Source: a bacterium
GTDB taxonomy: Bacteria; SZUA-182; DTGQ01
Assembly: GCA_040755755.1 (NCBI GenBank)
Contig: JBFLZW010000030.1
Coordinates: 1 to 64,000, forward strand
Length of the DNA stretch: 64,000 bases
Direction of reading: 5' to 3'
Below, one piece after another: positions 5,105 to 47,464 of this stretch. The notes beneath the pieces are model-generated. The model was not told the DNA's origin and did no database searches. It was given only the letters and a program-made list of their open reading frames with translations. The position numbers and the translations under genes are program-made. How positions within the stretch are numbered: position 1 is the first letter of the stretch; each line of letters opens with the position of its first letter.

Positions 5105-5190
5105 ATCAGCTTTTTACTGACCACTGTCCCCTGCTTTTACTGGCCACTGGCCACTGATCACTGACCACTGTCTTTACTGACCACTATCTT
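5105..5190. repeat. heptamer tandem repeat array (GTGRTCA type)
   Basis: The spacer between two signalling genes is filled with CAGTGGTCA, CAGTGATCA and CAGTGGCCA units (minus-strand sense), a degenerate period-7 array. It runs into the 3' end of the response-regulator gene and appears to supply its last codons (K-D-S-G-Q-stop). Related arrays lie at 30749-30799 and, inside a gene, at 32179-32210. Confidence 0.65.
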
Positions 5191-5560
5191 TACTCTTCTC
5201 CCTGATCTCTTCCACCAGTGAGATAATCTGCTCCGGAGGGAATGGTTTATTGACATACTGATAAATACCATAGCTCAAGGCCTCCTCAATGAGGGCCTCC
5301 GCAGAATAAGCGGTCATCAGGATAAACTCGGTTTTCCTGTCTATTTTTTTGTTTGTTTTTTGGATTTTCCTGATTGTTTCCACGCCGTTAATGCCCGGCA
5401 TGATAATATCAATCAAAATAACATCAAAGAATTGCTGGTCAGTCTTTTCAATGGCACCATATCCGTCTCCAGCGGATTCAACCTCGTATCCGGCGTCCTG
5501 GAGGATATCGATCAATGTTTCTCTCATACCCGGTTGATCATCCACAACCAAGATTTTCAA
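5174..5560 (-). CDS. single-domain CheY-like response regulator
   Basis: The 128-residue protein is a bare receiver domain. It has the acidic pair D7/D8, phospho-acceptor Asp51 in VILIDIIMPG, Thr83 and Lys105 (VNKPF). No effector domain follows, so it must act by protein contact or as a phosphate shuttle, as Spo0F- or DivK-type proteins do. It sits directly after the membrane kinase gene (24-base gap) and before the receiver-PAS-kinase, which suggests a linear relay from membrane kinase to this regulator to the downstream hybrid kinases. Its C-terminus is encoded by the heptamer array, hinting that the array altered the original 3' end. Confidence 0.9.
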   Translation of the reverse strand: MKILVVDDQPGMRETLIDILQDAGYEVESAGDGYGAIEKTDQQFFDVILIDIIMPGINGVETIRKIQKTNKKIDRKTEFILMTAYSAEALIEEALSYGIYQYVNKPFPPEQIISLVEEIREKSKDSGQ

Positions 5561-12366: not shown

Positions 12367-12687
12367 GCTCGCTTTCCCTCCGTATTTGGTATAACATGTT
12401 AAAAACATGTAAATATAACATCTTTTCCCGGTAAAGTCAATAATTTGGGTCGGGAAGAATACCTTCAGGAAAGCCGGGTGGAGCCAGGGGAATATCCTGA
12501 TTCCATGCTGGAATTGATACCGATAAATAGTACAGGCGGGGAGTTTTTTGAAAATTTTTCCTTGATTAAAAATACGGAAGGTAATAAAATGAATTATTAT
12601 CTATGACTCTGCATGCAAGATTACGTGCCGGTCTATTATACATTCTCTTATAGGTTATTGATTATCGCTGCATCCTTAGGGGGTTTT

Positions 12688-14244
12688 ATGAAAAGGCTTA
12701 AATTGGCTTCAATATTTCTGGTTTTGATATTCGTTGCTTCCTGCTCATTAGGGAAAAAATATCTGTCCCCCAAGGGACCGGATTCCACTGCACCGGAACA
12801 AAACATCAGGCAGAATGAAAGTCCGCAGAAGTCCTGGGAAAGCGATTCGGAATCATATCTTCGGGCTGGAATCCAAAAGCTGCAAAATCAAGCGTATGAG
12901 GCTGCCATCCAGGAATTCAAAAAAGCCCTGATCCTGGACCCTCATCGGGCCGACGCTTACTATTATCTCGCCCTGGCAGAGCATAAAAGCGGGCATCTCG
13001 ATGATGCGGTCGAGGGGTATCGGGCAGCTCTGAAAGCCAATCCTGAGCTTTACGAGGCGATTTTTAACCTGGCAGTCATCTATAGCCTGCAAAGAAAGCA
13101 TGATCTTGCTCTGGAGCAGTATTATCAAGGACTGAACATTTTCCCCGATGATCCCGAGCTTCACTATAATATGGGCCTCTGCCTCGATCAAATGGGCAAA
13201 ACGGACAAGGCTGCCCTTGAATACCAGAAAGCCTGTCAGCTCGGTCCGCGGATGACAGATGCGTATCTGCAATTAGCCGGACTGTATGAGCGGCAGGGAA
13301 AGGTGCCCGAAGCTATCGCTGAATATCAGAAGGCTCTCAAGATATCTCCCGGCAATGAGGTGGCCCAGAAGAATCTTGCCGTACTTTCTTCCCGGGAGAG
13401 TGAAGGCGAAAAAACCGCACAGGCACAACCTGCTGCCGGTGAGCCGGAGGACAGCCAGCCCCAGGAAGGCAGCATGTTCAGCAAGTTAATGTTCTATCCC
13501 CAAAAGCTGTACCGGTCCATCAGGGGTGACGGCAGGGGGAAGGATGATAAAGGCGCTGATGAAGAAAGACTGAATATGCCGCAGGAGGCAGGGCATCCCG
13601 GCATCAAGAAAAGCTTCAATCTGGGCATTAATAATAAGCTGGTTACCCAAAAGAAAGTTGTCTTTACCAATAATGTCGGCGATAACACCATGAAATCCAA
13701 AAGGACCATCGCTCAGCTCGGATATACGCCCGGTTTGTTGAAAAATACCTGTCTCTACCTTAATCTCGGATCGATCAGTATGGGCTTCGATCAAGCTCTC
13801 GACCTGAATCCGCAGGTTAAGTTCGAAAAGGCCGTGGCCTTCGCATATGGTGCCGGAATCTCTTCCCATGTTTACAACGTCCCCGAATCCCCCCTGGGAA
13901 TCAAAGTCAATCTGGACCTCTTGCACTACTCTCCCAAGGGAAATGATAATGAGGCGGATACCAGCCTTTCCGCTGCGGCTGAAGTAACCGAGTATCAACT
14001 GGCTGCCGATACTGTCTATCAGGGGTTTCGGAAATTCTCTCCGTACCTGGGTCTTTTATATGCCAAGTCATCGGGAAGTCTTGATTTTTCCGATTCCACC
14101 GGAGACATCAGTTTTGATGAAAAAGATCAATTCGGATTCAGGATCGGGACTGGTTACGATTGGCGGGAAAATATCAAATTAACCGCCGAGTGCCGGCTCC
14201 TTGATGAAAGCGCTTTGTCGTTGTTGATTAATTATGCCTTTTGA
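12688..14244 (+). CDS. TPR lipoprotein with outer-membrane-barrel-like C-terminus
   Basis: From the ATG at 12688 (GGGGG seven bases upstream) the 518-residue protein starts with a lipoprotein signal ending FVASC (Cys19). Residues about 45-235 are five to six tetratricopeptide repeats (for example AYYYLALAEHKSGHLDDAVEGY). A charged linker rich in Glu, Gln and Lys follows. Residues about 335-518 are alternating hydrophobic beta-strands (LCLYLNLGSISMGF, SPYLGLLYAKSSGSLDF, ENIKLTAECRLLD) ending in a C-terminal Phe (INYAF), the usual end of an outer-membrane barrel. A lipidated TPR module fused to a barrel would lie at the outer membrane, perhaps as an assembly or secretion factor; function is unknown. 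Confidence 0.7.
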   Translation: MKRLKLASIFLVLIFVASCSLGKKYLSPKGPDSTAPEQNIRQNESPQKSWESDSESYLRAGIQKLQNQAYEAAIQEFKKALILDPHRADAYYYLALAEHKSGHLDDAVEGYRAALKANPELYEAIFNLAVIYSLQRKHDLALEQYYQGLNIFPDDPELHYNMGLCLDQMGKTDKAALEYQKACQLGPRMTDAYLQLAGLYERQGKVPEAIAEYQKALKISPGNEVAQKNLAVLSSRESEGEKTAQAQPAAGEPEDSQPQEGSMFSKLMFYPQKLYRSIRGDGRGKDDKGADEERLNMPQEAGHPGIKKSFNLGINNKLVTQKKVVFTNNVGDNTMKSKRTIAQLGYTPGLLKNTCLYLNLGSISMGFDQALDLNPQVKFEKAVAFAYGAGISSHVYNVPESPLGIKVNLDLLHYSPKGNDNEADTSLSAAAEVTEYQLAADTVYQGFRKFSPYLGLLYAKSSGSLDFSDSTGDISFDEKDQFGFRIGTGYDWRENIKLTAECRLLDESALSLLINYAF

Positions 14245-14695
14245 AGTGACTGGATATAAACTTGCCCCACGATTGAACCTTGGCGGTACCAGGGATTTTT
14301 AGATTTAAATCTGGTAGCACCACAGGCATTTTTACATACCGGCTAATTATCATACACTGCGGCGGCAGCCGCTTTGCGTTCTGGGGGTCCGGTAGTGAAG
14401 CGAATTTAACTGCTTTTACTCTAAAAAATATTCCTGGTTTGCAGAAATCATGAGAGTCTACTCAAGAGCCAATTCATTTATCTCTTCCAGAAGATAATGT
14501 ACTGCAAGAGACCGATCAAAAAGAATTGGAGAAAGTAATGCAGTGAGGCATCATTTTTGCTTTCAATAGACTATACTCATAGTAAGTACGAGACACTGGA
14601 TACCCACAAACGGTTAGGAGCGGGCGAAAAAGAGGAGCAGTGCGAATGAAATATCATATTCCGGTTGACCAATTCTGTTGTGGAAAGGAAGGCTC
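14245..14695. other. 450-base intergenic stretch
   Basis: An imperfect hairpin (GGTACCAG...TGGTAGCACC, 14283-14322) lies just after the TPR gene and may end its transcript. On the minus strand a 30-codon open stretch around 14460-14553 (FDRSLAVHYLLEEINELALE) looks like the decayed tail of some gene but could not be assigned. Nothing else is recognisable. Confidence 0.4.
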
Positions 14696-16423
14696 ATGCA
14701 GGGAATGCATTCACCTTTTTTGCTCAAGATTTCTCCTGACAAGTATATTTTTTTATCACTCCTGCTCCTGGGTCTTATCTTCCCTTATCCGGTCCGGGCA
14801 GCGATCTATCCGTATCCGGTTTCAGGTGCTCTCTACCCTCCCGGCGCATTTTTTTCTGTTCCCTCCGCCTATGTTCCCCGGTACCGGACTGGTGAAGTCC
14901 TGGTCAGATTCAAAGCAGGGGTCTCGCCTGCTCTCATGGGCAGTCTGAGCCGGAAATATGCCCTGAGGCAGGTTTCCAGCAGCCCATACAGCGGATTCCA
15001 CCGGGTTGCGACGGCTGCTGTTGCCGGTGATCTGGTTCAGGCCCTGCGGAGAGAGCCTGGGGTTGCCCTGGCTGAAGCAAATTTTATCCGCCACGTGGAG
15101 GAGTTTGTTCCCAACGATCCGGTCTATAACCTGCAGTGGCATCTGCATGTCAATGGATTGCCGCTGGCGTGGGAGCTGTCTGCCGGGCAAAATGTCGTGG
15201 TGGCGGTACTCGATACCGGCATCGCTTACGAGAATTATCTGAAATTCGCTCAGGCTCCTGACCTGGCCAACACGAGCTTTCTCCCCGGCTGGGATTTTGT
15301 CAATAACGATGCCAATCCGGATGACGACAACCGGCACGGCACCCATATTGCCGGAATCATTGCCCAATCCACCAATAACCTCACCGGCGGGGCCGGGGTC
15401 GCTTTCCAGTGCAGCCTGATTCCGGTCAAGGTGCTGGATGCCAGCGGTGCAGGTGATGTAGCCACTATTGTTGACGGTGTTTACTATGCGGTCAATAATG
15501 GCGCACAGATCATCAATATGAGTTATGGATCGATTGCCGACCCTTCAGCCGCCGAAGAGGAGGCCATCAATTATGCCGTGAGTCAGGGGGTACTGGTAGT
15601 CTGCTCGGCAGGCAATGAGGCATCGAGCCAGCCTCATTACCCTTCCTCCTATCCTGACTCACTGTCGATAACCGCCACCCGGTTTGATAACAGCTTTGCC
15701 TCCTCGTATTCGAACTATGGACCTGACGTTGACCTGGCCGCTCCGGGCGGGGACCTTTCCCTGGATCAGGATGGGGACGGAAATCCGGACGGGATATACC
15801 AGCAGACCCATGATGGAAGAAACTTCCGGCGGTTCGACTTTTATTATGCCGAAGGGACCTCAAGCGCCTGCGCTTATGCGTCAGGAGTGGCAGCCCTGGT
15901 CCTGGCCAGAGGCGGCGGTTTGCTCTCGGCAGCTCAGGTCAGAGAGATTCTGGAAAGTACAGCTATCGACCTGGACACGCCGGGCTGGGACCAATATTAT
16001 GGATGGGGCGTGCTTAACCCGCATGCCGCCTTACTGGCTGTGGATGCAGCCATCATCGCACCTGTGGCGGCAGCCCAGGGGCGGCTGTGGCCTTTTCTGG
16101 TTACTACCCCGGTTGATAATCTCATCCGAGCATACAATCCTCTCTCATCCCTGATTGGAAGCAGCACGGTCAGAGAATCGAGGGCTTCAGCAGGATATTT
16201 GCCCGCCGACCGCAGCATCTCTCCGGGCGGGTATTTCCCTCTGACCCAGGCAGCCGGTTTTCCTGCCTCCTGGCCAGGGATCCCGACATCCTTTGCCGGT
16301 GGCAGCCGAGTGACAGATACAATCTCCGGCCTGGGCTATTCACCCCTTATCGCCTCTTATTACGGTCTCCTTTGGCCGGTTGCAGTGAATATCTCTCCGG
16401 GAAAGGTTTTATTTGCACCATGA
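14696..16423 (+). CDS. secreted subtilisin-like (S8) serine protease
   Basis: From the ATG at 14696 (AGGAAGG just upstream) the protein has 575 residues. A signal peptide occupies about 1-36. An inhibitory prodomain (GEVLVRFKAGVSPALMG to about 140) resembles the fervidolysin-type propeptide. The catalytic domain shows Asp173 (VVVAVLDTG), His214 (NRHGTHIAG), oxyanion Asn307 (SAGNEAS) and Ser389 (EGTSSACAYASG), so it should be active. After about residue 440 there is a 135-residue Pro/Ser/Gly-rich extension with no recognised domain. It should be exported as a zymogen. Its gene precedes thioredoxin and two exported Tyr/Gly-rich proteins on the same strand; a processing role for them is speculation. 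Confidence 0.93.
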   Translation: MQGMHSPFLLKISPDKYIFLSLLLLGLIFPYPVRAAIYPYPVSGALYPPGAFFSVPSAYVPRYRTGEVLVRFKAGVSPALMGSLSRKYALRQVSSSPYSGFHRVATAAVAGDLVQALRREPGVALAEANFIRHVEEFVPNDPVYNLQWHLHVNGLPLAWELSAGQNVVVAVLDTGIAYENYLKFAQAPDLANTSFLPGWDFVNNDANPDDDNRHGTHIAGIIAQSTNNLTGGAGVAFQCSLIPVKVLDASGAGDVATIVDGVYYAVNNGAQIINMSYGSIADPSAAEEEAINYAVSQGVLVVCSAGNEASSQPHYPSSYPDSLSITATRFDNSFASSYSNYGPDVDLAAPGGDLSLDQDGDGNPDGIYQQTHDGRNFRRFDFYYAEGTSSACAYASGVAALVLARGGGLLSAAQVREILESTAIDLDTPGWDQYYGWGVLNPHAALLAVDAAIIAPVAAAQGRLWPFLVTTPVDNLIRAYNPLSSLIGSSTVRESRASAGYLPADRSISPGGYFPLTQAAGFPASWPGIPTSFAGGSRVTDTISGLGYSPLIASYYGLLWPVAVNISPGKVLFAP

Positions 16424-17452: not shown

Positions 17453-18355
17453 ATGAGGTTTTTGAGAGAGAAAGCTGGTTGCGTAGTATTTCTGGTATTG
17501 GTTCTATCGGTAGCTTTATATGGCTCAAGTGCACAGGCTTACTATGGCGGTCTGTATGGTTACGGTATTGGCAGTATTACCGGCAGTGGCTCCAGTCTGG
17601 GAAGTGTATACTACAGCGGTCTGGGAAGCGCATATGGCGGACTGTATGGCGGCCTCTACGGCGGGCTCGGCCTCTATGGCGGGCTGTATGGTCTGTATGG
17701 CAGCAGCTTGTATGGCGGACTGTATGGCGGCCTCTACGGCGGGCTCGGCCTCTATGGCGGGCTCTACGGCCTCTATGGCGGACTGTATGGTCTGTATGGC
17801 AGCAGCTTGTATGGCGGGCTGTACGGCGGCCTCTATGGTGGTCTGTATGGTGGTCTGTATGGGGGGCTACTGGGTAGATATAGTTTGAGTGAAAGTGTTG
17901 ATCCCCTGGCCAGAGAGGCTCAGGTGCTTCTCCTGACATCGGGGACGACCCTGCCTGCTACCTCGACTACGGCCACTGCTCCCGTACCAACTGTCCCGGC
18001 ATTGCCAAATCCCACCGGAACCTGGAGTGGCACATGGCTGAGCTACATTACGCTGAAGGGCGGCATCGCCAATTTCGTTCTTACCTATAATCCCCTGACC
18101 TTGACCGTTTCCGGAACAGCAGGCCTTCTGCTGAACAAGCTGATTCCTGTTCCCATTCCTGTCTCCGGTTTAAACAGTGCAACCGGTTTCACTCTGAGCG
18201 GCAGTTATTTTGATCCTCTCAGTCTGGTAACGTATTATGCAGATTATACCTGCACTCTGGTTTCCCCGTCTTTTCTCACGGGAACGTATTTGATTCATGA
18301 TGCCCTGTATCTCAAGAGCGATGCAGGCGAATTTAACCTGAGCCTGGTCATCTGA
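17453..18355 (+). CDS. exported YGGL-repeat protein (novel family A, member 1)
   Basis: The 300-residue protein has a signal peptide ending SSAQA before YYGGLYG. Residues about 30-140 are almost entirely Tyr, Gly and Leu in units of YGGL and YGLYG, expanded at the DNA level by in-frame duplications of about 78 and 99 bases. A Thr/Ala/Pro linker (about 160-185) leads to a 115-residue C-terminal domain starting NPTGTWSGTW, predicted beta-rich, with LTVSGTAGLLLNK and DYTCTL segments. The low-complexity region resembles glycine-tyrosine structural or adhesive proteins; the C-terminal domain is shared with the next gene. The start is ATG at 17453 with GAAGGGAG upstream. Function is unknown; a cell-surface structural role is inferred. 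Confidence 0.85.
   Translation: MRFLREKAGCVVFLVLVLSVALYGSSAQAYYGGLYGYGIGSITGSGSSLGSVYYSGLGSAYGGLYGGLYGGLGLYGGLYGLYGSSLYGGLYGGLYGGLGLYGGLYGLYGGLYGLYGSSLYGGLYGGLYGGLYGGLYGGLLGRYSLSESVDPLAREAQVLLLTSGTTLPATSTTATAPVPTVPALPNPTGTWSGTWLSYITLKGGIANFVLTYNPLTLTVSGTAGLLLNKLIPVPIPVSGLNSATGFTLSGSYFDPLSLVTYYADYTCTLVSPSFLTGTYLIHDALYLKSDAGEFNLSLVI
17633..17880 (+). repeat. in-frame tandem repeats coding YGGL units
   Basis: A block beginning TATGGCGGACTGTATGGCGG at 17633 recurs at 17711 (offset 78 bases, 26 codons). The CAGCAGCTTG marker at 17701 recurs at 17800 (offset 99 bases, 33 codons). All units are multiples of three, so the frame is kept. Confidence 0.85.
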
Positions 18356-18602
18356 GTCTTGATAAGGACCTTTCGGTGAGGGCGATTGAAATTAGAGAGG
18401 AGGGGGTTGGTTATTTGGCAGCAGATTCAGGTAAACCACTACTTCAGGTATCTTTCGTGGCTCCAGGCCAAAGGTGCTCATTACGTTTTTAAAGCCGGTT
18501 AAAGGTTTAACAGCCGCTGCGCTGTTTCCTTGAAGGAGGATGGAGCTGAACAGTGAACATTCATTGCCCATCCCCCGCTATCCGGAAAGGGAGGTATTAA
18601 CC

Positions 18603-19280
18603 ATGAGGTTCACGAGAGCAAAACTAGTTTTTGTGGTTTCCCTGCTTTTAGCAGTGTCTTTGGTCATGTATAGCCAAAATGCCCCAGCATATTACGGCGG
18701 TCTTACCGCTGGTATTCCAGGAAGCGGCCTTTACGGCCTCTATGGCTTATTTGGTGGTGAATTCAGTCCATACGGTCCATATTATGGCCTTTATGGTGGT
18801 CTGGCCGGTTTATATGGGCTGGGGGGGGCAGGCTTTACTCCGGGTGCCGGACAACTGATCCGGCAGGCTCAGGCACCCCTGACAACCACGACTACTCTGG
18901 TCCCTGTTTTACCAAATCCCACGGGAAGCTGGAGCGGCACGTGGGTAAGTTATGTCAGCCTGAAGAGCGGAGTGGCTGATTTTCAACTGCTTTACACTCC
19001 GGGAACATTGGTTGTATCAGGAACAGCAGGGCTCCTCTTAAATAAGCTTGTTCCAGTTCCGATCAGTGTATCCGGCCTGAACAGTGCTACCGGATTTACC
19101 CTGACCGGCACCTATTTTGATCTGAACGCCCTTGTCAACTATACGGTGGATTATACCTGCACGCTGTCTTCTCCAAGCTTTATCACGGGAACCTACATCA
19201 TTCATGATCCCCTGTATCTGCAAGTCGATACCGGCACCGTGGGGCTGACACTGGCCAATCCCATACCGATCATCGTCTGA
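18603..19280 (+). CDS. exported Tyr/Gly-rich protein (novel family A, member 2)
   Basis: From the ATG at 18603 (GGGAGGT eight bases upstream) the 225-residue product begins MRFTRAKLVFVVSLLLAVSL and has a signal peptide ending around NAPA before YYGGL. The repeat region (about 30-80) is shorter and more degenerate (GLYGLYGLFGG, YGPYYGLYGG) than in the preceding gene. The C-terminal domain (about 112-220) is clearly homologous: NPTGSWSGTW, VSGTAGLLLNKLVPVP, VSGLNSATGFTL, DYTCTLSSPSF, GTYIIHDPLYL. It therefore arose by duplication with divergence of the repeat tract. It has its own 240-base leader and ends at a strong bidirectional hairpin. Confidence 0.85.
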   Translation: MRFTRAKLVFVVSLLLAVSLVMYSQNAPAYYGGLTAGIPGSGLYGLYGLFGGEFSPYGPYYGLYGGLAGLYGLGGAGFTPGAGQLIRQAQAPLTTTTTLVPVLPNPTGSWSGTWVSYVSLKSGVADFQLLYTPGTLVVSGTAGLLLNKLVPVPISVSGLNSATGFTLTGTYFDLNALVNYTVDYTCTLSSPSFITGTYIIHDPLYLQVDTGTVGLTLANPIPIIV

Positions 19281-23617: not shown

Positions 23618-24832
23618 TTAATCGATTCCTGCCGATTCATTCCCTCTGCACCTTCTCCTTATCCCTGCCATAACTCCGATAATTCCCGCAGCCAGCAGGA
23701 ATATCAGAACAGGCTGGGATGATATCGGTACAGACATCGATTGAACCCGGCCTGCCAGAAATATTTCCCGGTCCGTGCCGGATGAGCTCTGCCAGACCAC
23801 GTATCCATTGTTGTTGATATTCGGAGTCAAATCATCGGAGGAGTTATCGGTAAGCTGGATGGTTCTGCTGCCATTATACAAGAATATCTCATTATCATGG
23901 CCATCGTGTCCATACCAGACCACATACCCTTGAGCATTTATCCGGGGCTGTTCGTCATCGGAGGAATTATCGGTAAGCTGGATGGTGCCCGTACCATTAT
24001 ACAGGTATATCTCACAATCACCGCCGTCATATCCACGCCAGACTGCATACCCTTGAGCGTTGATCGAGGGTTCCCAGTCATTAAAAGAGTTATTGGTAAG
24101 CAGGATGATTCTGGTACCATCATACAGGAATATTTCATAATCCCTGCCATCGGACCCACGCCAGACTACATATCCTTGGTCATTTATCTGGGGATATTCA
24201 TCATTATACGAGTTATTGGTAAGCTTGACAGGGGGTTTGGTCCCGTCATACAGGTATATCTCACCATCCCAGCCATCGGACCCATGCCAGACCGCATACC
24301 CCCGGTTATTTATCCGGGGATATTCATCATTATACGAGTTATTGGTGAGCCTGACGGTTTTAGTCCCATCATACAGGTATATCTCATAATCTCCTCCATC
24401 ATATCCATACCAGACCACATATCCATTGTTGTTGATATTGGGAGCCCAATCATCATACAAGTTATTGGTAAGCTGGGTTGTTGTGGTGCCATTGTAGAAG
24501 AATATCTCGGTATCATGACCGTGATCGTCATATCCATGCCAGACTACATACCCCTGGTTATTTATCTGGGGATATTCATCGTTATAGATGTTATCGGTAA
24601 GCTGGATGGTTCTGGTCCCGTTATACAGGAATATTTCGTAGTCTTGACCGTCATATCCTGCCCAGACCCCGCACCCATTGTCATTTATGCGGGGAAACTG
24701 CTCATCCAAAGAGTTATCCGTAAGCTGAATGGTTTCGTTCACTTGGGAATATGATAGAGAGGCCGGTGAAAAAAGCGTGATAAGCATTGTAGTCATAATC
24801 ATACATACAGCAGGTGAATATTTTTTTTTCAT
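23618..24832 (-). CDS. exported 8-repeat propeller with PEP-CTERM-like tail
   Basis: The 404-residue protein has a signal peptide (1-30) and then eight repeats of about 41 residues with the pattern QLTDNSxDDxxPxINxxGYVVWxGxDGxDxEIFLYNGT, a TolB/beta-propeller-type unit. The C-terminus has a VPISSQP segment, a hydrophobic helix (VLIFLLAAGIIGVMAG) and an IRRRCRG basic end. That tripartite layout resembles PEP-CTERM/exosortase sorting signals although the Pro-Glu-Pro core is missing. It would be a surface-anchored protein in an organism with an exosortase. The Cys in the basic tail is unusual. It ends 12 bases from the sigma-like pseudogene on the other strand. Confidence 0.8.
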   Translation of the reverse strand: MKKKYSPAVCMIMTTMLITLFSPASLSYSQVNETIQLTDNSLDEQFPRINDNGCGVWAGYDGQDYEIFLYNGTRTIQLTDNIYNDEYPQINNQGYVVWHGYDDHGHDTEIFFYNGTTTTQLTNNLYDDWAPNINNNGYVVWYGYDGGDYEIYLYDGTKTVRLTNNSYNDEYPRINNRGYAVWHGSDGWDGEIYLYDGTKPPVKLTNNSYNDEYPQINDQGYVVWRGSDGRDYEIFLYDGTRIILLTNNSFNDWEPSINAQGYAVWRGYDGGDCEIYLYNGTGTIQLTDNSSDDEQPRINAQGYVVWYGHDGHDNEIFLYNGSRTIQLTDNSSDDLTPNINNNGYVVWQSSSGTDREIFLAGRVQSMSVPISSQPVLIFLLAAGIIGVMAGIRRRCRGNESAGID

Positions 24833-24910
24833 AGGTAAGCTCCTTCAATAACGGATTTTCACATGTCTGAGATACATATACTGTGAAGGGGTGAATATTG
24901 AACTTTTTGC

Positions 24911-25016
24911 TCAGGAGTCAGGAGTCAGGAGCCAGGAGCCAGAAGAAGGTAAAAGAACTCCTCACTTAAGATGGCCCATACCTTCTTCTGAATTCCGACT
25001 CCTGACTCCCGGCTCC
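24911..25016. repeat. inverted heptamer arrays (TCAGGAG type)
   Basis: Five 7-base units (TCAGGAG x3, CCAGGAG, CCAGAAG) at 24911-24945 face an inverted degenerate array at 24981-25016 whose complement reads GGGAGTC-AGGAGTC-GGAATTC-AGAAGAAGG. Both arms end in AGAAGAAGG, so the pair can form a long imperfect hairpin. Confidence 0.75.
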
Positions 25017-30664: not shown

Positions 30665-30748
30665 TTGACAATCTTTTTGATAAATGCTATATAGACTATC
30701 ATATTTAGCCGCCAGACTGCTCTATTTAACTGATTTATCAGTTGTCAG

Positions 30749-30904
<156 letters not shown>

Positions 30905-30934
30905 TGAGAATATTTCAGGGTAGTGGAGATGGAT

Positions 30935-31939: not shown

Positions 31940-34900
31940 TCAAAAGAGCCGCAGTTGCCGGGACTTGGCTGCGGAGGCGGTTGATACTCTGATCATCAGA
32001 TGAGCCGGAATCTCGGCCAGAAAAGAAGATGGCCTGGTCGGAACTACCTGGTGATATCGCTGACGACGGCGTGCCGAAAGAAGCACCAGTTCATCTTTGG
32101 CCCTGGTAAGGGCCACGTAGAACAATCGGCGCTCCTCCTCCCGCTGAAGGTTTCCCTGCGGTGTCTGTCCCTGTTTTTCACTGACCACTGACCACTGATC
32201 ACTGATCACTCCATAGGGCAGGAGTCCCTCTTCCAGCCCGCAGATGAATACTGCCGGAAATTCCAGCCCTTTGGCTGCATGGATGGTCATCAAAGAGACC
32301 GCATCTCCCCTGGCTGCATTCTTACCTCCCTGATATTCCAGGTCACCATCCCGGAAGAGAAGAAGACCCTTGAGGAATTCCGGTATTGAGGCAAATTGCT
32401 TCGAACACTGATACAGCCGGTCCATATCTCCAACGGGGTCCCCCATCAGGTCTTCAGCAGGGTCCTCATCAGACTGCTCCGAAGCCTTGGTTCCGGTTTT
32501 TGCTGACGGCATTTCCTGCCGGATCAGGTCCAGAACAAGCTGGTCCGCCCGCTCCTGAATCCGCAGGTGATACGTATCCCAGAGGGAGAGTATCCTGCGG
32601 AATATCTCTCTGCCCCCCTGAGAAAGGATATCCTGTCCATCTCTGGCCAGGCCATGCCTGATGGCCTGGAAAAGGGAACATTGCCGCTGGCTGGCTATTT
32701 TCTGCAGGCACTCCCCGGCCAATGATCCTGCAAAGGGTTCACCCTCCCGCCGGTGGAGAAGATTCTTCAGGGAAAAGTCATCTTCCGGATTGACCAGAAA
32801 GCGAAGCATGGCCACGATGGTTTGAACTGCGGGATTTTGCAGGAATCCCTTCTGGCCGACCACCCGGTAGGGAATTCCAGCCTGAAGGAAGCACAATTCC
32901 AGAGGACCTGCCTGCCGGCCGGTTCGAAACAGAACGGCAAAATCGGAAAATCCAAGCTCCCCGCATTCTTGTGCAGGGTGAATCGCCCCCTGGTGTTCCT
33001 GCCGGAAGTTCCTGCCCTGTCCCTGTCCATGAGCCTGGAGCATATCGACTCCTCCCATCATCCGGCTTATCTCCCGGACAATGCTGATCCCTTCAGCCTG
33101 TTCGCTGCCGACAGAATGCAGCCTGATGCCGCGGCGGGGTGCTCCTCCTTCTTCCTGCCGCGCCGGTTTCAGTTCAAGCCCGAAACGATCGGAATTATGC
33201 CTGATCAGGGCACCGGCGGCCTGAAGGATATACCCTTGGGACCGGTAGTTCCCGGTGAGATGGAAAAGGCGGTGGCCGGGGAAATCCTGCTGAAGCCGGA
33301 AAAAGAACCGGTAATCCGCTCCCCGAAAAGCATAGATGGCCTGGTCCGGGTCTCCGATCACCAGGAGTCCGGCACCATCCTCCCCGGCCAGAAGCTTGAC
33401 CAGGAGGTACTGGATCTCGTTGACATCCTGGAACTCATCCACCAGCACCTGGGAGAATCGGCTGCGATACCTGTGCAGGATCTTCGGGTCGGACTGGAAC
33501 AGCCGCACAACCCTGAGCAGAAGGTCATCGTAGTCGCAGACATGGTAGCGGTGCAGCAGATTCTGGTAGGCCAGACAGAATGACCAGAGCTCATCCGCTG
33601 ACAGGTCCGGCTGTGTGGATGCTGCAGATAAGTCAGCCATTGCTTCCTGCATCCACGGCGGGGGAGGGGGCTGTGCGGCCATCTGGCTGGACGAAGATTC
33701 CTCCGGGGGAAAATCCAGACCCCAGGACCTTGATTTTATTCTCGATATCCACTGATACATCCGCTGCGGCTGAAGCCGTCGGCGGCCAGAGCAAGATGAT
33801 TGTCCTGCCAGGGCATCTCTGACCAGCAGCAGGGCATCCTGCTCGTTGATCAGGGTTTTGCCGGGCTGTGCTCCGCTGCCGGACTCTTCCTGCAGAATGC
33901 TCAGGCAGAGCTGATGGAAGGTGCCGGTGACCAGGGCATCGGCTGTGATCTCAGGGGGGAGAATCTGCCGGATCCTGGCGGTCAGTTCCCGGGCGGCCTT
34001 GTTGGTAAAGGTAATGGCCAGAATCTGCTCCGCCGGGATTTTCCGGAATTGAATCAGGTGGGCAATCCGGCAAACCAGGGTCCTGGTCTTGCCGGTCCCC
34101 GGACCGGCAATGATAACGATCGGTCCGGAGTCAGCAGTGACGCACAGGCGCTGCTCCGCGTTCAGTTGAAGGATCCAGGGGGGAGGGCAGCCCTGAGACA
34201 GGCTTTGAGTTCCTTTGGCGGAGCTTTGAGCTTCGTCATTCTTCTCCTCCTTGCCGAAGGCTCTTTTCATTTCCTCTCCCTTAAGGCAGGGAGTCCCCGT
34301 GGCAGGGGATACCGGGTGAGTTTGATACAGGGGGGCGGTATTCTTTTCACCTCCCCGCCCCTTCCCGGACGGAATATCCCTGATCCCGAACAGGCTCATC
34401 TGGGCCTTGAATTTTTGCCGGTCCTGATCGTCGAATAATTGAACCTTGCCATATTCGCCATCGAATCCGGGACGGATTTTCACCTCACCTGTCCGCACTC
34501 TGCGGATGCCCTCGGCCAGAAGGACATCGGATTGGGCCTGGATATCTTCAAGAGGAATCGTCCGCAGGATTTCCAGCTCGGTTCCCAGGCTGGTCAAAAG
34601 CTGAAAATATGCCTGCTGGACTTTTTTGCTGCTCTCACCTGTCTGATAGAGCTCGGCCAGAATCTGGGGCAGGGGAACAATCGACTCATAGGCCGGAGTT
34701 GGCACATCGGGGCGTACACCATGAGGCCGGTCAGCCAGTTCAGCTACCCGGTGCATCACTCCGACCGTTACCTTCCTGCCGCAGCGGGGGCAAACTTTGC
34801 CCGCTGCCATCGTCTCTTCAGGAGACCAGCAAACCTGACAATTGCGGTGGCCATCGTAGTGGTATTTCCCTTCTTCCGGATAAAACTCGATGGTCCCGGA

Positions 34901-45518: not shown

Positions 45519-46222
45519 TAATTAACCTCCTCAAGGTGAAGAATTGAGACACGATTCCTCTAAAAAATCAGACGCTGCTTCCCGAGGCCTTAATTTCTTC
45601 ACTTTATTACGATCGCAACACCTGCCTTTTTTGCTACCTCTTTACATCCGGGTGAGGAGGGGGGGATTTATGTACAGCTATATTTTTGTAAGACGCTATA
45701 CAATATTTTTTATTACGGAATTTGGTATTAACGTTATACTTTAACTCTCTACCGGACACTTTTGAGGTAACAACCGCGAATGAACGCGAATGAACGCGAA
45801 CTGAACAAAGAGGACTCGATAGTAAAGGCAAATGAATGCAAATCAAAAGAATTTATTAGCGTCTATTCGTGTGCATTCGCGGTTGATTACAGGAATTGAA
45901 AAAAGTGTCCGCTAGCGAGTACTTTAAACCTCCTCTTGTTCCTTTCTGTCCTTCCTTTTATATTATGCTCAATGCAGGGAGATAAAGTAAAGAGGGGAAA
46001 TTTTCATCCCTTTGTCAGGTTCAAAACTACCTTCTATTTCCGCCTTGATCTTCGAATATCAATATAATATATTATTACTATAATGACTAATGAAATATTA
46101 CCAGGGGGGAGCAACCCGTTTCTTGAAAGCGCATGAGGGAGGTGATGGCAGTTATTGGCAGACCAGCTTTGAGCACTCAGGTTTCTTGTGTATAAATGAA
46201 GAAAGAAAAAGGAGTAAAAAAT
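45519..46222. other. 700-base intergenic region with a foldback element
   Basis: It contains the MITE-like element at 45753-45911 and otherwise AT-rich sequence. The 3' part (46090-46222) is the leader of the plus-strand exported pair. No gene is supported. Confidence 0.45.
45753..45911. repeat. MITE-like foldback element
   Basis: Terminal 11-bp inverted repeats CGGACACTTTT (45753-45763) and AAAAGTGTCCG (45901-45911) enclose a second perfect pair, AACCGCGAATG (45772-45782) and CATTCGCGGTT (45874-45884). Between them GAACGCGAAT units are tandemly repeated. No coding sequence lies inside. Confidence 0.65.
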
Positions 46223-46792
46223 ATGAAGGACAAGAAGCTGAAGAGTCGGCGGCTTTTCATCCTGCCCAGCTTCACCCTTATCTTCCTGGGAATACTTATC
46301 GTTCAACACTCAGCCACAATCATGGCCGCCAATTGGCAGCCGCTTCCACCCTACAATACACTCTGGCCTTTATGGTCACCGCCGTTATCTCCAATTGACA
46401 CCCTGACAGGGCTGCCCAAGCCGATTGTCAGCCAGATTACCAAAAGCACGTACCTGCCGGTGCAGCCCGGATTGACCTGGGATCCCCGGAAAACTTATCC
46501 CTGGCTGCTGTATAATACTCCCCTTGGGCTCTGCTATTATGACCCCTACTATGGAATCAACTCCTGGCCCCCGGCATCTCTTCTGAACCCGTTGACCGGC
46601 CTGCCTGCACCTATTGATTACCTCGCTCTCAAGATCGCTTATACCTCCCTGGCACCCACCAGTTCCGCCTGGCTTGCCGCAAATGTCCCCACAGCCAATC
46701 TCTATTATTACAACACGTATCCTCCTATAACCGTATCTTCCACTCCCCCGCTTTCATCTCTGTTGACCCCGGCCCTTTTGTTAGGTTGGTAA
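46223..46792 (+). CDS. exported protein, novel family B, member 1
   Basis: From the ATG at 46223 (AAAGGAG seven bases upstream; an ATG at 46196 lacks a ribosome site) the 189-residue protein has a basic start, a hydrophobic signal segment and a cleavage region around IMAANW. The mature part is rich in Pro, Leu, Trp and Tyr and has no Cys cluster. Conserved blocks with the next gene: LPPYNTLWPLW, LSP-x4-TG-x-P-x-PIV, QPGLTWDP, YP-x-LLYNTP-x-G, YYDP-x2-G, WPP, TGLP-x-PI, and PTSSAWLAANVP. I do not recognise the family. It is probably periplasmic or surface-located. Confidence 0.8.
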   Translation: MKDKKLKSRRLFILPSFTLIFLGILIVQHSATIMAANWQPLPPYNTLWPLWSPPLSPIDTLTGLPKPIVSQITKSTYLPVQPGLTWDPRKTYPWLLYNTPLGLCYYDPYYGINSWPPASLLNPLTGLPAPIDYLALKIAYTSLAPTSSAWLAANVPTANLYYYNTYPPITVSSTPPLSSLLTPALLLGW

Positions 46793-46840
46793 TTCTTTGA
46801 AAAGTACCAAAAACAGGCTTACGACGAAAGGAGACTGACG

Positions 46841-47464
46841 ATGAGTCGGAGATATCCCTTGAAAAATTTTTGCTTTTTTTTAACACTTTTAGCAGCTCTC
46901 GGCTTTTTACTGGTGCCGGGAGCCGATGCACAAAACTGGAAGGCACTTCCTCCTTACAACACCCTTTGGCCGCTGTGGACGGCAGCCCTGTCTCCCAAGA
47001 ATCCGGTGACTGGTGTGCCGACGCCGATTGTAACCAACCTGAAACCTACAACCGTATTACCGGCTCAGCCTGGCCTGACCTGGGATCCAAGCTGGCTCTA
47101 TCCCTTTCTTCTGTATAATACCCCGGTCGGCATGGCCTATTATGATCCCCTCCTTGGAGTGAAAACCTGGCCGCCCAAGTATCTGGTTAATGCAACGACC
47201 GGGCTCCCGCAGCCCATTACCCTGCCGGTAGGGTATCAGTATCTGACCCCTACCAGTGCAGCCTGGTTGTCGAACAATGTTCCGGTGGCCAATCTGACCT
47301 ATCTCAGCACCTATCCCACGTTCGCCCTGGCCGCTAATCCGATAACGCTGCCTCCTGCTCTGGCTACGGCCCTGCCGGGTTTAAGCTCTCTGCTGGTTTC
47401 CCTGGTTGCTCCGGCTCCCAGCATAACTACTCTGTTAACCGCGGCTTCCCTGATCTATCCCTGA
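46841..47464 (+). CDS. exported protein, novel family B, member 2
   Basis: The 207-residue protein starts at ATG 46841 behind GAAAGGAG and has a signal peptide ending PGADAQ before NWKALPPYNTLWPLW. It is about half identical to the previous product through QPGLTWDPSWLYPFLLYNTP, YYDPLLGVKTWPP and TGLPQPITL. It then adds a hydrophobic Ala/Leu/Pro-rich C-terminal tail of about 45 residues (LATALPGLSSLLVSLVAP). The 48-base gap and shared orientation point to tandem duplication and joint expression; a terminator follows. Function unknown. Confidence 0.8.
   Translation: MSRRYPLKNFCFFLTLLAALGFLLVPGADAQNWKALPPYNTLWPLWTAALSPKNPVTGVPTPIVTNLKPTTVLPAQPGLTWDPSWLYPFLLYNTPVGMAYYDPLLGVKTWPPKYLVNATTGLPQPITLPVGYQYLTPTSAAWLSNNVPVANLTYLSTYPTFALAANPITLPPALATALPGLSSLLVSLVAPAPSITTLLTAASLIYP

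Follow-up and report, generated by a model that had tools for sequence, protein, structure and literature searches.

Exported proteins that join a Gly-Tyr-Leu tract to a predicted eight-stranded barrel: a lineage-restricted family in a bacterium of the SZUA-182 lineage

Described Gly-Tyr-Leu proteins and the two genes of the window

The soft block of squid-ring-teeth proteins, YGYGGLYGGLYGGLGYG (PMC10767161, PMC4555047), has been modelled as an amorphous, hydrogen-bonding segment (PMC4555047). Corneous beta-proteins of turtles carry a conserved beta core together with repeats such as YGGLYGLGGLGGYGG (PMC8074788). Searches of the literature yielded no counterpart of this animal Gly-Tyr-Leu block in bacteria. 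Here we describe two bacterial genes, A and B, whose products contain tracts that have exact words of 13–14 residues in common with the squid soft block. The genes lie in a stretch of 64,000 nucleotides (GCA_040755755.1, contig JBFLZW010000030.1, positions 1 to 64,000), referred to below as the window. Between low-complexity sequences, a resemblance of this kind is weak evidence of a shared mechanism.

Gene A (17453..18355, plus strand) encodes a protein of 300 residues. A signal peptide of 29 residues (17453..17539, ending AQA before YYGG, as read from the translation) is followed by a long YGGL/YGL tract of 114 residues (17540..17881), a Thr/Pro linker, and a C-terminal domain (18008..18346) recognized by profile match and by its AlphaFold model as an 8-stranded barrel. 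The tract is predicted to be disordered, being unstructured in the model of the full mature protein (pLDDT 33–43). Gene B (18603..19280, plus strand) is a paralogue of A with 225 residues and the same order of parts: a signal peptide of 29 residues (18603..18689, ending APA before YYGG, again read from the translation), a short Gly-Tyr-Leu tract of about 46 residues (18690..18827), a Thr/Pro linker, and a barrel domain found by profile match (18915..19253), which is 71% identical to that of A. The ATG at 18603 is favoured as the start of B, with GGGAGG ahead of it; the longer open reading frame from 18540 would place a prefix before the signal peptide. Both proteins end in Ile/Val, not in Phe/Tyr, whereas an aromatic last residue and a hydrophobic, lipid-facing outside would be expected of an outer-membrane beta-barrel.

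The translations thus confirm the architecture given in the first-pass annotation, although the GTWSGTW motif that it described as shared is present in A only, B having GSWSGTW. The observation was real and was understated, since the family is larger than two genes.

Predicted structure of the barrel domain

The AlphaFold2 model of the barrel, made with an alignment of seven rows, has eight strands with a mean pLDDT of 93.6, in agreement with the conserved beta domain proposed earlier, and the same eight strands are present in the model of the full mature protein. A Foldseek search of the PDB returned avidins, BFA1, the C-terminal barrel of NHBA and a designed barrel, with about 10–16% identity and TM scores to the query of about 0.55–0.66; the best of these matches are soluble barrels. 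Most strands have one hydrophobic face and one face rich in Thr/Ser/Asn, a two-faced pattern that would suit a small soluble barrel.

The modelled domain resembles avidin and streptavidin, which share the 8-stranded antiparallel barrel (Foldseek probability 1.00, E about 2e-4, TM about 0.55–0.66); however, the identity to the family barrel is only about 10%, and the Pfam avidin model gave no match up to E 10. Conserved Trp residues occur at two positions only, 9 and 13, both in strand 1. The avidin pocket has Trp over several strands, so the biotin pocket is missing. The predicted fold is avidin-like, and we do not assign the domain to the avidin family, given that neither the Pfam match nor the spread Trp residues of the biotin pocket were found. 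Antibody light chains, which came up in a sequence search of the PDB, were discarded as chance-like matches to Ser/Gly/Thr-rich strands that disappeared when the family profile was used. Foldseek against viral models gave weak matches only, to barrel-like proteins.

Size, modularity and evolution of the family

A profile search with the C-terminal domain, as the first-pass annotation had proposed, found 23 copies in the genome of the window (G000), of which 18 are joined to a tract; the domain of A alone as query recovered 22 places. At least seven further proteins in this genome have a tract and no barrel. It is apparent that A and B belong to a lineage-restricted, modular and unannotated family of exported proteins with at least 30 genes in G000. 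No usable match to the barrel or the tract was obtained from Pfam or NCBIfam, either with whole proteins or with domains, which together with the many paralogues upholds the claim of a new exported family. The family profile found 19 copies in a genome of the same genus (sister species, G001), 8 and 2 in two genomes of the same family, and 6 in a genome of the same order. Among the genomes searched with the domain profile, barrel relatives are confined to these 5 genomes of one order, with no match in 188 others (4 of the same class and 184 more distant). The tract itself is far beyond chance: a DNA pattern for GLYGGLYG matched 98 times in the genome of the window, compared with 0 for a reversed-pattern control, 115 times in the same-genus genome and 2–20 times in three other relatives, and outside the order a single isolated match, reading GFYGGFYG, was seen among 381 genomes. 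Several tract genes of G000 are truncated by the ends of contigs C5, C66, C79 and C87 (loci L115, L119, L114 and L116). Because many copies lie at contig ends, the tract repeats probably break assembly, and the copy number is to be read as a lower bound for a family that is probably undercounted.

The tracts are found on several different ends. Some carry, with or without a barrel, the roughly 45-residue block SPFGLQNMYYxxxTGxGLxYQVPFLQIAPLLGIAGLYNxLFPxLF, which like the barrel and the tract is not covered by a curated family. Other family proteins consist of the tract alone. Conversely, five of the 23 barrel proteins of G000 have other N-termini in place of the tract, which implies that the barrel serves some function by itself. 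Next to tract-less barrel proteins there are clusters of small secreted proteins rich in Pro, Tyr and Phe (L113:11034-13553; also L080 and L106), and these small proteins have a conserved C-terminal STANPLLFAxLSxLF or LTPTTLVFLILxLSL. In genome G002, a transglutaminase-core domain and a Big_6 domain are followed by a Gly-Tyr-Leu tail (L091:13404-14999, contig C212, in a frame that reaches the end of the stretch examined); its sequence suggests a possible cross-linking or matrix-anchored enzyme. Transglutaminase was rejected as a general partner, as none of the three in G000 was seen fused to a tract and the fusion was seen in G002 only.

One tract protein continues from the LQNMYY block into about 110 residues ending SCxQCHxN, and it is orthologous in three genera with 86% and 66% identity (L122:10171-10911 in G000 contig C6, L144:6237-6983 in G001, and L087:7801-8604 in G002). 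The motif is a putative single-haem attachment site; no Pfam model, including those for cytochromes, matched the protein. Could the family form an electron-carrying extracellular layer? The conservation of this haem-type member, and tracts that are 20% Tyr, would be in keeping with such a redox role, which we nevertheless regard as very unlikely, since one CxxCH protein with a single motif was found per genome and A and B have no CxxCH.

Taken together, the tracts examined contain 44% Gly, 22% Leu and 20% Tyr, and charged residues make up 0.3%; they are built mainly of YGGL and YGL units. Within the tract of A, Tandem Repeats Finder located in-frame tandem duplications (17633..17835) with units of 78 bp (94% matches) and 99 bp (92% matches), both multiples of three. 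Orthologous tracts differ in length between G000 and the sister species, at 114 versus 126 residues for A and 46 versus 62 for B. These observations could be read as neutral repeat expansion, with the tracts as products of slippage that have no specific role; this is the least probable of the explanations considered. The 17 GLYG units of A are written in 11 codon spellings, which implies that the peptide has been maintained as its codons diverged, and the same composition recurs in dozens of paralogues from three genera or more.

All 19 copies of the sister species pair with copies in G000 as reciprocal-best, one-to-one orthologues, indicating that the expansion is largely older than the split of the two genus members and that the copies have been retained. 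Barrels of orthologues have dS of about 0.6–1.8, dN of 0.04–0.17 and dN/dS of about 0.03–0.19, and these low ratios point to purifying selection on the barrel. The proposal that in-frame duplication alters the tract whereas the domain stays conserved is supported. The description of the system as fast-evolving holds for tract length and register, which drift, but not for the set of genes, which is paired one to one, or for the tract make-up, which is kept.

Strong conservation of the barrel between orthologues, with divergence among paralogues, would also be expected of diversified adhesins or ligand-binding proteins, in which an avidin/calycin-type barrel binds a separate ligand in each paralogue and the tract is a mere flexible stalk. 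The avidin-like fold and the five barrel proteins with tract-free N-termini are in favour of this explanation, which we consider possible, if rather unlikely. It is opposed by the restriction of conserved Trp to strand 1, unlike a biotin pocket, by the tract proteins that have no barrel, and by a tract make-up held more strictly than a stalk requires. The earlier suggestion of a structural or adhesive surface system is plausible, and the structural alternative seems preferable to the adhesive one.

Genomic neighbourhood, proposed role and comparison with animal proteins

A secreted subtilase (14678..16423, plus strand; Peptidase_S8 with a Fervidolysin-type prodomain by Pfam) lies 1 kb upstream of A and, given this co-location, is a likely partner. 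Of the eight subtilases scoring above threshold in G000, five have a tract gene no more than 1.5 kb away (on contigs C30, C5 and C13, and two on C1). Subtilases also sit beside tract genes in the other genomes, at three of seven in G001, three of ten in G002 and one in G003. Tract-free members of the class have 0–3 subtilases per genome, compared with 7–13 in relatives with tracts. About 2.6% of G000 is equally near a tract cluster, which puts the chance of five in eight near 1e-6 as a rough estimate that joint duplication of subtilase and tract genes may weaken. Thermolysin-type M4 proteases also recur near tract genes.

Upstream of the subtilase and A, a TPR protein whose C-terminal part is an outer-membrane barrel (12613-14244) matches TPR_Slam with 37.6 bits. 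Cargo of the T11SS (Slam), for example NHBA, resembles A and B in having a variable N-terminal part and a C-terminal 8-stranded barrel, and NHBA is among the Foldseek matches. The family barrel might thus be a Slam/T11SS-like secretion handle with the tract as passenger, an arrangement that we regard as improbable. Pfam models of T11SS cargo barrels did not match the family barrel. The barrel part of the TPR protein is short, with a weak match to the general OMP_b-brl model only, and proteins of this type do not recur beside other tract genes. Further, the SlipAM translocon (PF04575) has no above-threshold match in G000–G008, with none at all in G000 and one sub-threshold match in G002, and tract proteins without a barrel exist. 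We conclude that the secretion-handle explanation is not supported. G000 encodes seven secretins and so is very probably diderm with type II/IV machinery, which could be the exit route for the tract proteins.

Elsewhere in the window, two adjacent secreted proteins (46196-47464) share the N-terminus W(Q/K)xLPPYNTLWPLW, and with a relative in L098 (G002) they appear to form another small exported family. Short heptamer arrays (CACTGAC/ACTGACC, CTGACTC/TCAGGAG), apparently intergenic, are located at 5105-5200, 24905-24950, 30735-30910 and 32170-32215, and a 123-bp tandem array of 6.4 copies with 72% match (23841-24644) overlaps a minus-strand open reading frame of 404 residues (23618-24832). A phage origin was rejected, as there was no phage match and no relative in viral contigs; two viral-contig matches to the tract DNA pattern proved on inspection to contain neither a tract protein nor the domain.

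The family is most likely structural. From the composition, the predicted disorder, the number of paralogues, the occurrence of the tract on varied ends and the neighbouring proteases, we infer an extracellular material. A and B would then belong to a set of at least 30 secreted structural paralogues that jointly make a lineage-specific material, be it sheath, coat or biofilm matrix; in our judgement, this proposal has about an even chance of being correct. In such a material, the tracts would cohere after export by Tyr/Leu contacts and backbone hydrogen bonds, by analogy with the glycine-rich segments in squid ring teeth. The barrel would act as a soluble cap, holding the chain in solution as it is exported, and could also supply each paralogue with a contact of its own. 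Trimming or remodelling of the material would fall to the nearby subtilases and thermolysin-type proteases, and in-frame duplication, by altering tract length, might tune its mechanics. The same tract on different ends is expected if it is the tract that joins the components. If the proteins do assemble, material like that of squid ring teeth could be obtained from a bacterium. In that case they would also represent a new type of envelope or matrix in a lineage about which little is known, and a clear example of convergence in which a low-complexity structural sequence is maintained at the amino-acid level.

How far do the animal systems resemble this family? Suckerins of squid ring teeth are likewise secreted segmented structural proteins with disordered Gly/Tyr-rich blocks. 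However, they alternate soft blocks with Ala/Val/Ser/Thr/His-rich beta blocks, whereas the bacterial proteins have one tract and a folded barrel, and no such beta-crystallite block is present in the translation of any family member seen. In reptile corneous beta-proteins, similarly, glycine repeats of the YGGLYG type, variable in length, are attached to a conserved beta core (PMC8074788), but these proteins are a vertebrate skin family in which the beta region is short and not a barrel and the repeats are C-terminal to the core. Both likenesses are convergent analogy, not homology or membership. Only tentatively do we propose the fuller comparison, in which at least 30 Gly-Tyr-Leu paralogues with swappable folded ends (avidin-like barrel, LQNMYY, haem-type CxxCH, transglutaminase) and dedicated proteases would form a multi-component cuticle or sheath that arose independently in this bacterial lineage, convergent with squid ring teeth and with the proteins of reptile scales.
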